Shown here: positions 707 to 8,373 of the stretch, one piece after another | Layout: each line of letters opens with the position of its first letter | Position numbering within the stretch: the stretch's first letter is position 1 | Source: Kiritimatiellota bacterium | Lineage (GTDB): Bacteria > Verrucomicrobiota > Kiritimatiellia > JAAZAB01 | Assembly: GCA_008636095.1 (NCBI GenBank) | Contig: VSJD01000259.1 | Coordinates: forward strand, 1 to 10,000 | Direction of reading: 5' to 3' | DNA: 10,000 nt | The notes under the pieces: generated by a model | What the model was told of the DNA's origin: nothing | The model's input: only the letters and a program-made list of their open reading frames with translations | Database searches by the model: none | Program-made: the position numbers and the translations under genes

Positions 707-2413
707 TCATGCCTGAGCGCATTTCTGTTTCAGCACCAGCAGATTTTTCATGAGACCAGAGAGGGGCGTGTGGCCCACTCGGGCCGTTTGGCCCACCCGG
801 GCCGTTTGGCCCGCAACCGCGCCAAAGGCGTCGTGCAGAACTTTATACTGACCATAGAATTCTTGATAGATCGCTACATGCCTCGGAATCGGGCGATAGA
901 TTTTTCGCTTGACCCCCGTCATCGCTTCGATCGCCGGCTCGATCGCCGGATACGCGCCCCCCGCCAGGGCCCCGGCAATCGCCGCCCCCAGCGCACAGGT
1001 CTGGCAAGAGCGCGAAATAAACATAGGCCGGTTGAGTACATCTGCATAAATCTGCATGAAGAGCTCGTTTTTTTCGGCAATTCCGCCACAGCAGACCACG
1101 CGTTCGATGGGAACACCGTATTCCTCAATCCGGTTGACAATGGTTAGCGCGCCGAAGGCCGTGGCCTCCAGCAGGGCACGGTAAATCTCCGCGCGGGTCG
1201 TGTGCAGTGTCATGCCGACCAGGAGTCCGGTCAATTGCGGGTCCACGAGAATGGTCCGGTTCCCGTTGTTCCAATCAAGCGCCAAGAGCCCGCTGGCGCC
1301 GGGTTTCAACCGGCGAGCTTCAGCGGTGAGCTTGACCTGCAAGGCATCGTGCCCCTGGCACACGCTGGTGACAAACCACCGGAAGATATCCCCCACGGCG
1401 GACTGACCCGCTTCGATGCCAATATAACCGGGCAAAACCGAACCATCCACAATCCCGCAGACACCGGGGATATCCGGCACCTGCATCGTGTTTTTTGCCA
1501 CCATAATATCACAGGTGGAGGTGCCGACAATCTTCACCAGCGTGCCGGTTTTGATCCCCGCTCCCACGGCGCCCAGGTGGGCATCGAATGCGCCCACGGC
1601 CACGGGCAGGCCCTCAGGCAGACCCCAGGTAGCCGCCCAGGCTTTGGTCAAACGGCCCGCCTGATGATCAATCGAAAACGATTCCGAGGGCATGCGCGCA
1701 CGGAGCCGCTCCAGGCGCGGATCGAGCGATGCCAGGAATTCGGCGTCCGGCATACCACCCCAATGGCGGTTAAACATGGCCTTGTGCCCGGCGGCACACA
1801 CCCCGCGCACAACATCCTCTGGCCGGCTGACACCGCACAACACGGCCGGAATGTAATCCTCCAACTCGATCCAGGCATACGTGGCCTCAAACAGGCCCCG
1901 ATCCACATTCAGACAATGCCACAGTTTGGCCCAATACCATTCCGAGGAATACACCCCACCGCACTTGGCGAGGAAATGCGGTCTTGATTTTTTCGCCTGC
2001 TCCGTGATCCGCGCCGCTTCTTCGAAGGCCGTGTGATCTTTCCAAAGCCAGGCATAGGCATTCAGATTCTTCTTATATTCCGGATGCAGACACATCGGCT
2101 GATTTTGCGCATCCACCGGGATTGGGGTTGACCCCGTGGTATCCACGCCGATCCCAATCACTTCATTCCCATGCGCGCCAAATTGCCGCCGCGCCTGGCT
2201 CAAAGCCGCTTTGACGACCCGCTCAAGGCATGCCACGTAGTCCGCCGGCGACTGACGCGCCAGGTTGTGGTCCTTGGAATGAAGCAAAATTCCGTCCGTG
2301 CCGCCGGGATAATTTACAACCGCCACGCCGACTTCCTGGCCGTTGGCCGTATTAACCACCAGCGCCCGCACCGAATTTGTGCCGTAATCAATGCCGAGAG
2401 TGTAGGTTGCCAT
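707..2413 (-). CDS. araB: Ribulokinase, FGGY kinase family
   Basis: ATP-dependent phosphorylation of L-ribulose to L-ribulose-5-phosphate in cytoplasmic L-arabinose catabolism. The 568-residue product matches the usual AraB length. Visible motifs are the N-terminal phosphate-binding GIDYGTNS (7-14), DTTGSTP (91-97), ELEDYIPAVL (183-192), GAFDAHLG (274-281) with the catalytic-base Asp277, GTSTCDIM (297-304), and CCGGIAEKN (441-449) followed by CALGAAIAGAL in the nucleotide-binding half. I chose the ATG at 2411-2413 because AGGAG lies nine bases upstream. The frame stays open for 24 more codons to an ATG at 2485, but that extension is an inverted repeat. Odd feature: residues about 535-549 repeat GQTARV, encoded by an 18-bp tandem DNA repeat, in the linker between the LHDAFG and LSGLMKNLL segments. 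araD lies just upstream. No araA is in view. Confidence 0.95.
   Translation of the reverse strand: MATYTLGIDYGTNSVRALVVNTANGQEVGVAVVNYPGGTDGILLHSKDHNLARQSPADYVACLERVVKAALSQARRQFGAHGNEVIGIGVDTTGSTPIPVDAQNQPMCLHPEYKKNLNAYAWLWKDHTAFEEAARITEQAKKSRPHFLAKCGGVYSSEWYWAKLWHCLNVDRGLFEATYAWIELEDYIPAVLCGVSRPEDVVRGVCAAGHKAMFNRHWGGMPDAEFLASLDPRLERLRARMPSESFSIDHQAGRLTKAWAATWGLPEGLPVAVGAFDAHLGAVGAGIKTGTLVKIVGTSTCDIMVAKNTMQVPDIPGVCGIVDGSVLPGYIGIEAGQSAVGDIFRWFVTSVCQGHDALQVKLTAEARRLKPGASGLLALDWNNGNRTILVDPQLTGLLVGMTLHTTRAEIYRALLEATAFGALTIVNRIEEYGVPIERVVCCGGIAEKNELFMQIYADVLNRPMFISRSCQTCALGAAIAGALAGGAYPAIEPAIEAMTGVKRKIYRPIPRHVAIYQEFYGQYKVLHDAFGAVAGQTARVGQTARVGHTPLSGLMKNLLVLKQKCAQA
772..812. repeat. 18-bp palindromic tandem repeat inside araB
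   Basis: GGCCCACTCGGGCCGTTT (772-789) and GGCCCACCCGGGCCGTTT (790-807) differ at one base, and a partial third copy begins at 808. Each contains GGCCC/GGGCC arms. The period is a multiple of three, so araB stays in frame and gains a GQTARV repeat in its C-terminal linker. Confidence 0.85.
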
Positions 2414-2451
2414 GATCGGATTCTCCTGCCTGTCTTGATGCATCGGAATTT

Positions 2452-2535
2452 CAAAATTGCCACAAAGATGCACAAAAAAGAGCATTAATTTATCATATTT
2501 GTGAATCTTGTGCTTTTTTGTGGCAAATCATTTTG
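2452..2535. repeat. Imperfect inverted repeat between araD and araB
   Basis: TTGCCACAAAGATGCACAAA (2457-2476) pairs with the arm at 2507-2526, whose reverse complement starts TTGCCACAAA and continues with GCACAA, with three mismatches over 20 positions. Flanking CAAAAT and ATTTTG extend the symmetry by a few bases with a small gap. The arms enclose about 30 AT-rich bases. The element lies in the araB leader on the minus strand, upstream of its ribosome-binding site. Multiple CACAA/TTGTG steps in each arm are typical of short intergenic repeat families. It could be a MITE-like element or an RNA hairpin, and a regulatory role is not shown. Confidence 0.7.
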
Positions 2536-2557: not shown

Positions 2558-3424
2558 CTAATTCAAAGGGTTTAGTTTAGACTGCCCGTAATATGCTGAT
2601 CGCCCGTGCTTTCTTAAGTAATGCTTATCCAGTAGTGCCTGGGAAATGCCCGTGCGCCGGCCGCCCAGGCTACGCCGTAGGCTTCGCCGAGGCGAGTCAA
2701 GCAGAAAGGTCAAAAGCGCCATCTTGCTGATGGCTTCCAACACAATGGCGTTTTCCACGGCCGCCGCCGGGGTCGCGCCCCAAGCAAAAGGCGCATGGTT
2801 GGCGACCAGAATGAACGGACAGACCATCGGCTGGAGCCGGCATCCCGGCTGGAGCCGGCATCCTGGCTGGAGTCGCAGACGCCGGATTTTCTTTACGATC
2901 ATCCGGCCCGTATTGGCTTCATAGTTTTCCCGGATGGCGGATGGGCGCATGATCTCGGTGACGGGCACGGCGCCATAACAATAATCGGCATGGGTGGTAC
3001 CCATGCACGGCAGACTTCGGCAGGCTTGGGCAAAGGCCGTGGCATAGGTGGAATGGGTATGAACCACGCCGCCAATTTCGGAAAACTCGCGGTACAGTAC
3101 CAGATGGGTCGGCAGGTCCGTGGATGGCATGCGTACCGACTCCAGTCGAGATGCCGACTCCAGTCGAGATGCCGACTCCAGTCGGGATGCCGACTCCAGC
3201 CGGCGGCCATCCATGTCCGTCAGTACCATGTCGGCCGGCCGCAACGCGGCATAGTCCATGCCGCTGGGCTTAATCACCACAATACCGCGCCGGCGGTCAA
3301 TCCCACTGACATTCCCCCAGGTCATAGTCACCAGCCCTGATGCTTTCAGGCGGAGATTTTCCGCCCAAACCCGCCGGATCAAATCGTCCAGTGTCCGGCG
3401 GATTGATTTGGTTCGAATCGGCAT
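2558..3424 (-). CDS. araD: L-ribulose-5-phosphate 4-epimerase with repeat-built loop insertions
   Basis: Converts L-ribulose-5-phosphate to D-xylulose-5-phosphate, feeding arabinose into the pentose phosphate pathway; a Zn-dependent class II aldolase-fold enzyme. Visible motifs are WGNVS (36-40), KPSG (52-55), Zn ligands His122 and His124 in VVHTHS, Asp147 in GTTHADYCYG, the third Zn ligand His210 in LVANHAPFAWG, and Tyr279 in AYYGQ after LLDKHYLRKHG. All active-site residues of the E. coli enzyme appear present. The ATG at 3424 is preceded by GGAGG with an 8-base gap; a TTG 15 bases further up is less likely. The protein has 288 residues against about 231 in E. coli. The excess is mostly three in-frame insertions: LESASR repeats (about 76-97), LQPGCR repeats (about 185-199) and an Arg/Ser/Gly stretch (about 244-259). 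They fall in loops, so activity may survive. The gene precedes araB. Confidence 0.93.
   Translation of the reverse strand: MPIRTKSIRRTLDDLIRRVWAENLRLKASGLVTMTWGNVSGIDRRRGIVVIKPSGMDYAALRPADMVLTDMDGRRLESASRLESASRLESASRLESVRMPSTDLPTHLVLYREFSEIGGVVHTHSTYATAFAQACRSLPCMGTTHADYCYGAVPVTEIMRPSAIRENYEANTGRMIVKKIRRLRLQPGCRLQPGCRLQPMVCPFILVANHAPFAWGATPAAAVENAIVLEAISKMALLTFLLDSPRRSLRRSLGGRRTGISQALLDKHYLRKHGRSAYYGQSKLNPLN
2661..2698. repeat. Palindromic repeat insertion near the 3' end of araD
   Basis: GGCTACGCCGTA is followed directly by GGCTTCGCCGAG (about 2668-2691), two 12-base copies differing at three positions, inside a stretch with CGCC/GGCG symmetry. It encodes an Arg/Ser/Gly loop at araD residues about 244-259, absent from the E. 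coli enzyme. GCTACGC, or its complement, recurs in three non-coding places of this window: 5634-5640, 6203-6209 and 7607-7613. Confidence 0.6.
2828..2876. repeat. 18-bp tandem repeat inside araD, second insertion
   Basis: CGGCTGGAGCCGGCATCC occurs at 2828-2845 and identically at 2846-2863, then a diverged partial copy starts at 2864. The core CGGCTGGAGCCG is a 5-bp inverted repeat around GG. On the coding strand it reads as LQPGCR repeats just before the LVANHAPFAWG Zn-ligand segment. Confidence 0.9.
3136..3203. repeat. 18-bp tandem repeat inside araD, first insertion
   Basis: CCGACTCCAGTCGAGATG occurs at 3136-3153 and 3154-3171. A copy with one change lies at 3172-3189, and a 14-base partial copy at 3190-3203. 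The core CGACTCCAGTCG is a 5-bp inverted repeat around CC. The coding strand reads it as LESASR repeats between the DMDG turn and STDLPTH. Its reverse complement matches the second araD array, so the two arrays are one family in opposite orientation. Confidence 0.92.
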
Positions 3425-3504: not shown

Positions 3505-3538
3505 CGTCCCACCTTCGCTAAAGCTATGGCGGGCAGGC
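3505..3538. repeat. 34-bp intergenic palindromic element, copy 1
   Basis: The stretch starts CGTCCC, contains CTTCGC, and ends GGGCAGGC. It aligns without gaps to 5664-5697, with about three quarters of positions identical. It lies three bases beyond the stop of the acyltransferase gene, in the gap before araD. The remainder of that gap (3425-3504) shows only the araD ribosome-binding site and no clear promoter. Confidence 0.65.
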
Positions 3539-8118: not shown

Positions 8119-8373
8119 TTATTGCTTATTCGCAGGACTGACCCCTTCGTCCCCAGACCCCTTCGTCCCCAGCGCTGATTCGCCACGGAATCTTTTAATG
8201 GATTGCATGACTTGAACCAAGGTATCCTGCACCAAGTCCTGCGCATCCGTCGGATTGCCGCACAAGAGACAGGCGGAACGAAACAGGCGGTCTCCGTAAA
8301 CGCGAATTATCTCGTCAATTGCGGAGGCATTCCCCTGCTTTAACGCCGCACTGATATCGGAATCGTTCATCAT
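8119..8373 (-). pseudogene. ECF sigma factor truncated after region 2 by a 16-bp repeat
   Basis: The reading frame gives 84 residues. Residues 22-67 are a good sigma-70 region 2: YGDRLFRSACLLCGN (26-40), then DAQDLVQDTLVQVMQ (43-57) and RFRGESA (61-67). After FRGESA an ECF factor should continue with the end of region 2, a linker and region 4 (helix-turn-helix for -35 binding), to about 170-190 residues. Instead the frame enters two 16-base direct repeats (LGTKGSGDEGVS) and stops five codons later. Nothing resembling region 4 is seen in any frame down to cutA. Without region 4 it should not recognise a promoter normally, so I call it a pseudogene; a short regulatory fragment cannot be excluded. 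No Shine-Dalgarno is evident at the ATG-ATG start. Confidence 0.75.
8141..8172. repeat. Two perfect 16-bp direct repeats at the sigma-factor breakpoint
   Basis: ACCCCTTCGTCCCCAG occurs at 8141-8156 and identically at 8157-8172. Because 16 is not a multiple of three, each copy shifts frame. The junction with recognisable sigma sequence is at about 8172. It resembles REP-like repeats mobilised by RAYT transposases, but no such transposase lies in the window. Confidence 0.85.

Follow-up and report, generated by a model that had tools for sequence, protein, structure and literature searches.

In one genus of uncultured bacteria, many protein genes, core genes among them, contain tandem arrays that share their architecture from gene to gene, not their letters. 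We lean towards the reading that each array is born at its own locus from an 18-nt double-hairpin unit, S(5)-L1(4)-S'(5)-L2(4), and gains and loses whole units there. S and S' are the two arms of a hairpin and L1 and L2 are the spacers between them.

The window, by which we mean the whole 10,000-nucleotide stretch that was analysed, is one contig (G000:C109) of the 3.81 Mb draft genome G000. Going by the similarity of AraD, the closest relatives with a name are MAGs that carry the labels Kiritimatiellaeota (isolate LacPavin) and Lentisphaerae (groundwater). The kinase gene next to araD is called araB-type by its place beside araD, and its real start may be at a later ATG. The window has three arrays (see the table), and all of them have the same layout. 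Arms of 5 bp (S) alternate with their reverse complement (S') and are separated by two 4-nt spacers, so that S-L1-S'-L2 is repeated. The first-pass annotation described one 18-bp palindromic repeat inserted into araD in both orientations. Two araD arrays in opposite orientations are indeed confirmed by Tandem Repeats Finder (2828-2872, 2.5 x 18; 3136-3199, 3.6 x 18) and by inverted-repeat pairing (2828-2875 with 3155-3202, a 48-nt inverted repeat that is 88% complementary). It was also right that the two units differ at three positions, two of which are an A-T/G-C pair in the hairpin, and that both arrays are in frame and free of stops. Array 1 encodes LESASR, and the minus strand of array 2 encodes LQPGCR. 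Speaking of one inserted repeat was too narrow, since there is a third array in araB and there are dozens more in the genome and in three sister species.

Genes and 18-bp arrays in the window
Feature	Position	Strand	Evidence and composition
FGGY carbohydrate kinase, araB-type ribulokinase (by its place beside araD)	707..2485	-	PF02782, PF00370; hosts the third array
Third array, 3' part of araB	763..812	-	arms GGGCC/GGCCC; spacers GTTT/ACCC and variants; reads GQTARV
araD, L-ribulose-5-phosphate 4-epimerase (Aldolase_II)	2558..3424	-	PF00596, E 1.2e-39; 1jdi, E 5.3e-56; hosts arrays 1 and 2
araD array 2 (site 2)	2827..2876	-	arms CCGGC/GCCGG; spacers TGGA/CATC on the plus strand
araD array 1 (site 1)	3136..3203	-	arms CCGAC/GTCGG; spacers TGGA/CATC on the minus strand

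The arrays in the window differ in length from those of its relatives. Site 1 of araD is 54 nt (3 units) longer than in G001 and G003 and 36 nt longer than in G002 and G004. At site 2 the excess is 36 nt (2 units) over all four relatives compared from the same genus. Measured against the emptiest relatives, site 1 has 54 nt of extra DNA and site 2 has 36 nt. The araB array is equal in length in G002 and G003 and 36 nt longer than in G004 and G001, where just 20% of the left flank aligned. Relatives without the inserts have RRLESA-type and LRLQP-type codons at the two araD sites, which means that one unit-like stretch per site is native. The structure 1jdi, which we take to be the solved L-ribulose-5-phosphate 4-epimerase of E. 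coli, aligns without either insert stretch. The extra residues fall into two gaps of this alignment, one between TWGNVS and PSTDLPTH and the other immediately preceding PFILVANHAPFAWG. Read from the 1jdi alignment, both inserts would lie in loops.

We compared 27 AraD proteins, those of the window and 26 relatives (30 of 120 relatives were aligned; the fragment P0028 and the outgroups P0030, P0042 and P0076 were omitted). There are 0, 1, 2 or 3 extra 6-residue units at site 1 in 15, 9, 1 and 1 of them, with one irregular, and 0, 1 or 2 at site 2 in 16, 8 and 3. Each site varies on its own among the relatives. The first-pass annotation proposed looking for homologous araD genes that lack the unit, and they are found among these relatives. 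It would have given up its reading had the unit occurred nowhere else in the genome or had close relatives all shared the same insertions; the unit does occur elsewhere and the relatives do differ. There is a third variable spot in araD at 2662..2693 (minus strand). It is a 12-bp imperfect repeat of a different kind from the 5-4-5-4 layout, reads SPRRSLRRSLGG, and is present in two, one or no copies in relatives. Elsewhere in the window, a short ORF of 84 aa with sigma-70 region 2 (8119-8373) has two exact 16-bp copies in its 3' part (repeat 8140-8172) and is possibly a frame-shifted sigma factor gene.

Searching G000 for the 18-mer with up to two mismatches finds 21 places, on seven contigs, against 3 for the pattern read backwards, so these matches are not chance. 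The same contigs hold further arrays that have this layout in other letters, such as GCGGT-CACC-ACCGC-TGGG, TCGGC-CGGT-GCCGA-CGAC and GCCAA-GTTG-TTGGC-ACCA. A detector that demands the 5-4-5-4 layout finds 46 arrays on 41 contigs of G000 (451 kb; 20 contigs taken blindly, 20 picked for matches, plus the window). Together with 34 from sister genomes there are 80 arrays, which reduce to 59 distinct units. From locus to locus the letters of arms and spacers change, and the 5-4-5-4 shape does not. One spacer pair, TGGA/CATC, is the commonest and is combined with different arms at many loci, and this suggests that loci exchange some sequence. The first-pass annotation had proposed a tiny mobile or expanding element. 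Expansion at many loci, in both orientations and in frame, is supported by the arrays of the genome and its sisters; that it is one repeat is not, with 49 of the 59 units seen once.

Nearly all of the sampled G000 arrays (45/46) sit in frame in credible protein genes. Pfam families are matched at E <= 1e-5 by 28 of the 30 host ORFs scanned, out of 34 that bear arrays. These families include GyrB, TopoVI-B, MurB, a MurD-like protein, a second three-domain Mur ligase, MraW/RsmH, SecG, UvrC and HypF, where the array is at L119:14850. There are also a phage-type integrase/recombinase, DsbD, CinA, TatD, CheA/CheW/CheR-type proteins and ABC transporters. Codon phases 0, 1 and 2 account for 25, 10 and 9 of the 44 arrays classed. 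The peptides are unrelated across phases (LEPASR, GWGRHP, AGTPAV), and phase 0 arrays mostly encode repeats rich in Ala, Gly, Pro, Ser or Thr. A long 7-bp microsatellite (ACAGACG-type) directly follows the last HypF domain at a contig end (L006:1706-1812, G000:C283).

Clear arrays are found by the dozen in G000 and three sister species, and there are few or none in G001 or in the phylum sample. A covariance model built from 12 arrays gives 87 matches in G000, 61 in G004, 50 in G002 (70% complete) and 25 in G003 at E <= 1 with 150 candidates scored per genome, where matches inside one array are counted separately. On the same terms G001, from the same genus, has 3, and 12 further genomes of the family and class have 0-6 apiece. 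Across 288 genomes of the phylum at E <= 0.001, matches occur only in G000 and G004, apart from a single one in G220; the filters of this search were stricter and G000 itself falls to 16 matches under them. Only 3 (G220, G034, G006) of 23 loci picked by the model from other genomes, G001 included, have an array by the detector, each a short one of two copies. AraD loci of relatives in the family and class (88 kb) and 27 kb of G001 yield no array by the detector, and the AraD loci of other bacteria (476 kb) yield one, which is A+T-rich. There is also local clustering along the chromosome in G004, where 12 kb (L130, G004:C49:180000-192000) has eight covariance-model matches in at least five separate arrays.

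Relatives could be mapped at 21 array sites, which gives 46 site-by-species comparisons. The length difference is a non-zero multiple of 18 nt in 35 of them; 4 are equal in length, 5 differ by other multiples of 3 and 2 by other lengths (two L119_449 rows overlap L119_352 rows, and a few comparisons rest on short flank matches). We infer the polarity of these differences, gain or loss, from few species. Compared by eye, several empty sites keep a piece of the array as native sequence, although where one tandem unit ends and the next starts is ambiguous. In the Mur ligase gene, G002, G003 and G004 keep the arm GCGGC, and G001 does not. Whole hairpins are present in the NYN gene of G004 (GTGGC-CATC-GCCAC) and the MurD-like gene of G003 (CGGGT-GTTT-ACCCG). 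Two empty sites, araD site 1 and the one in the Mur ligase gene, lack one of the two spacers, so that plain duplication of what was already there is not the whole story. Arrays can also change throughout between species, as in GCGGA-GGTG-TCCGC-CCCA (G000) versus GCGGA-GATG-TCCGC-TCCA (G004). In HypF the spacers are identical and the arms are TCGGC/GCCGA in G000, CCGAC/GTCGG in G004 and CCGGC/GCCGG in G002.

At two array positions another species has an unrelated insert (rsmH in G004 and the MurD-like gene in G001), so such positions look like stretches that tolerate insertion. The insert of G001 (L211, orthologous to L109:14866) makes the MurD-like gene 147 nt longer than in G000 and 165 nt longer than in G003, both multiples of 3. 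The sequence GCTATGGCGGGCAGGC at 3523-3538 of the window recurs reverse-complemented inside the rsmH insert of G004 (L207), where G000 has an 18-bp array. That position in rsmH is taken by a second repeat as well. Several families of dispersed repeats, about 50-240 bp long, are found at L119:2304-2543, 3128-3360, 12431-12541 and 13268-13346 and at L109:15585-15639. They are in many places in the same-genus genomes and, among the matches listed, most are also in G001.

The arms covary pairwise, with mutual information up to 1.43 bits. This is no independent proof because the detector selects for it. It applied no selection on the spacers, and these follow a rule of their own. If L1 is written as two dinucleotides, ab, then L2 is a'b', where each dinucleotide is reverse-complemented in place (pairs x1-y2, x2-y1, x3-y4, x4-y3). 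Over the 59 units 3.14 of 4 positions are complementary in this way, compared to 1.10+-0.13 when spacers are shuffled (maximum 1.56 in 5000 shuffles; like all the shuffles below, these ignore common descent of the units), or 0.78 per position against 0.28 expected. It is the best of 48 mappings tried (24 complementary, 24 identical), and the runner-up reaches 2.46. The rule holds in each of the three codon phases (means 3.28, 3.40, 3.78), so we reject a codon-level cause. Repeat counting of one spacer family is rejected as its source too, since the 37 distinct spacer pairs counted once each still give 2.76 versus 1.16+-0.16. The effect is weaker, 2.5 versus 1.48+-0.32, in 10 pairs that lie far from the two commonest families. 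A held-out set of 15 new units scores 3.0 against 1.50+-0.25 shuffled; its regions were chosen by the covariance model, 3 of the 20 have no detector array, and 2 of the 18 arrays are previously seen units.

The rule is strongest where an array is most uniform. It rises with homogeneity (Spearman 0.54, 102 arrays, orthologues included), and the ten perfectly homogeneous arrays average 3.9/4 for the spacers and 5.0/5 for the arms, with 9 of the 10 scoring 4 of 4. Homogeneous arrays are presumably young. This gradient suggests that arrays are born paired and decay later. The first-pass annotation held that the element is selected for its hairpin. That part of the claim is not supported. Pairing is at its best where arrays are perfectly homogeneous and weakens with heterogeneity, a pattern that birth in a paired state followed by decay would explain at least as well as selection. 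When neighbouring hairpins of an array are compared, 62 arm-pair cells vary (cells overlap, because each arm is compared in both hairpin registers). In 52 of them only one partner of the pair has changed; in the other 10 both have, and 9 of those 10 still pair.

With 5-bp arms, a period of 18 also stands out when DNA is searched without prior selection. In 653 kb of unselected DNA from G000 and G004, 5-bp arms with a 4-nt loop give 8 arrays at period 18 versus 8 at all other periods from 14 to 45 combined. Four of the 8 (L059, L346, L309:1301, L326; spacer-rule scores 3, 0, 2 and 2) have two copies only and could have arisen by chance. When the arms are 4 bp and the loop 4 nt, period 18 is barely ahead in the same DNA (12 arrays versus 11 at 15 and 10 at 30). 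Tandem repeats of other periods also occur.

Since arrays seem to be born paired and to decay afterwards, we lean towards a mutational process. It would copy the unit, folded out, at seed hairpins already present in the gene, and the products would survive only where the reading frame is kept. The seed would be a native half or whole hairpin. Hairpin-dependent copying would then add units that are already paired. It could be replication slippage or a switch of strands while the unit is folded out, or else rolling copying of an 18-nt dumbbell. Such a dumbbell, a 5-bp stem with two 4-nt loops, would give 18-nt units, arms in register and whole-unit steps. Copies would afterwards decay through ordinary mutation. 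Insertions would survive in tolerant protein stretches because 18 nt is six codons. The whole-unit differences in 35 of 46 comparisons, the native arms and hairpins at empty sites, the homogeneity gradient and the period-18 excess with 5-bp arms count for this origin. Against it, slippage alone would give other multiples of 3 too, 7 of the 46 length differences are non-zero and not divisible by 18, 52 of the 62 varying cells changed one side only, and period 18 hardly stands out with 4-bp arms. We reasoned through several fold-back copying schemes and rejected them, as none yields S-ab-S'-a'b'. More tentatively, the repeat may be one of geometry only. A process of this lineage would write S-ab-S'-a'b' into genes with letters taken from the target and with both the arms and, by complementarity of their dinucleotides, the spacers set at birth, so that an 18-nt dumbbell-like fold replicates and not a sequence. 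We think this is possible and would not bet on it.

One can imagine a dispersed mobile palindrome, as in the Rickettsia palindromic elements, that is moved into genes by a transposase or by recombination and then drifts. Ten of the 59 units are indeed common to two to four arrays (some of these are orthologues in sister species), and CGAC/CGGT with GCCGA arms occurs in three different genes of G000. Both orientations and in-frame insertion in unrelated genes would also follow, and G000 has four Y1 transposase matches. However, most units are seen once, and the arms in several cases resemble local native sequence. Y1_Tnp is also present in array-poor relatives (2 matches in G001, 2 to 11 in each of G005-G010), and the array-rich G002, at 70% completeness, has no match. 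We reject the link to this transposase, because the occurrence of PF01797 does not track the arrays among the 12 genomes searched, and we consider a mobile palindrome unlikely. The arrays might also be ordinary coding minisatellites: slippage of any chance repeat, survival of the in-frame products, and hairpins that are incidental to G+C-rich DNA. Slippage typically leaves whole-unit changes in coding DNA, and arrays with 4-bp arms are almost as numerous at periods 15 and 30 as at 18. This does not account for the way period 18 stands out with 5-bp arms, nor for the few or no matches in same-genus G001 and the sampled phylum, and slippage would not predict spacer complementarity. We find it improbable that the arrays are nothing else.

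Selection could act on either the nucleic acid or the peptide. If the structure of single-stranded DNA or mRNA were selected, the spacer rule could be explained by docking: loops would attach to the feet of adjacent hairpins through two 2-bp helices. Spacer covariation in all three codon phases argues for this, as does the outcome of double arm-pair changes, of which 9 of 10 still pair and each of those 9 changes one or more amino acids. However, arm and spacer pairings cross, so by our reasoning they do not form one planar fold, and pairing fades in heterogeneous arrays. A geometry that would use both pairings is a hairpin loop docked on the feet of another hairpin; DNA bi-loop dimers, as described in part of PMC9414646, are a loose parallel. 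In a test of loop docking at array ends both flank halves are above chance, and foot and distal positions are not separated. We give structural selection little credence. Selection of the peptide, with small-residue repeats serving as linkers and the DNA pattern following from codon choice, is the hardest to accept. It would suit phase 0 being the commonest with its small residues, but the same nucleotide rule is kept in three phases that encode unrelated peptides, and many AraD relatives do without the peptide. The locus-born arrays described above remain the explanation that we prefer.

These arrays matter for several reasons. The Rickettsia palindromes posed the question of how DNA invades genes in frame, and a similar question arises here in a lineage far from Rickettsia. 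The unit keeps its geometry while its letters follow the gene, be it GyrB, the Mur enzymes, SecG or UvrC. Several copy-number states per site in relatives make the birth, growth and decay of coding palindromes directly measurable, and the spacer rule is an exact and testable clue to the copying mechanism. A search of the literature on Kiritimatiellota repeats and tandem palindromes found no such arrays in titles and the starts of abstracts, with subscription journals mostly outside its scope.

Among known systems the Rickettsia palindromic elements are the nearest by behaviour, and their size, sequence families and conserved peptide are a misfit. In both, hairpin-forming DNA sits in frame in unrelated genes. 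The Rickettsia elements are said, in the part of PMC6649704 drawn on here, to lose repeat identity over time, and the present arrays seem to do the same. They are described in part of PMC10969869 as about 150 bp long, in ten sequence families, with a conserved peptide. Here there are 18-bp tandem units that share no sequence or peptide, use three phases and vary in copy number by whole units. The coding inverted repeats of Nematomorpha mitochondria, described in the same part of PMC6649704, are gained and lost between species, have perfect arms of up to 142 bp and have been proposed to arise by template switching. Inverted repeats in protein genes with gain and loss between species are common to both, but the 5-bp arms here are in tandem, and the spacer rule is absent from that part of their description. 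REPs are extragenic by name and GTAG- or CGTC-tagged (in the portion of PMC3733652 used); our arrays resemble REP/BIME as short palindromes in many copies, but are intragenic and have no Y1_Tnp (RAYT) association. The guide of IS608 pairs with its target at A+16:T-3 and A+17:T-4 (PMC5934647, in the section drawn on), a different pattern from the spacer pairs here, and we reject guide/cleavage pairing of that type. PARCELs are intragenic tandem repeats with DNA dyad symmetry too, and the portion of PMC2996958 drawn on gives them a 25-residue amphipathic motif in ORFs without assigned functions, whereas the units here have 6 residues and lie mostly in known protein families. Coding minisatellites and VNTRs have the same tandem, in-frame variation by whole units (35 of the 46 comparisons, and the AraD relatives), but not a single 5-4-5-4 hairpin geometry with covariation across dozens of unrelated loci. 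By these comparisons the arrays would be a variant of coding palindromes or minisatellites, and may yet prove to be a class of their own.
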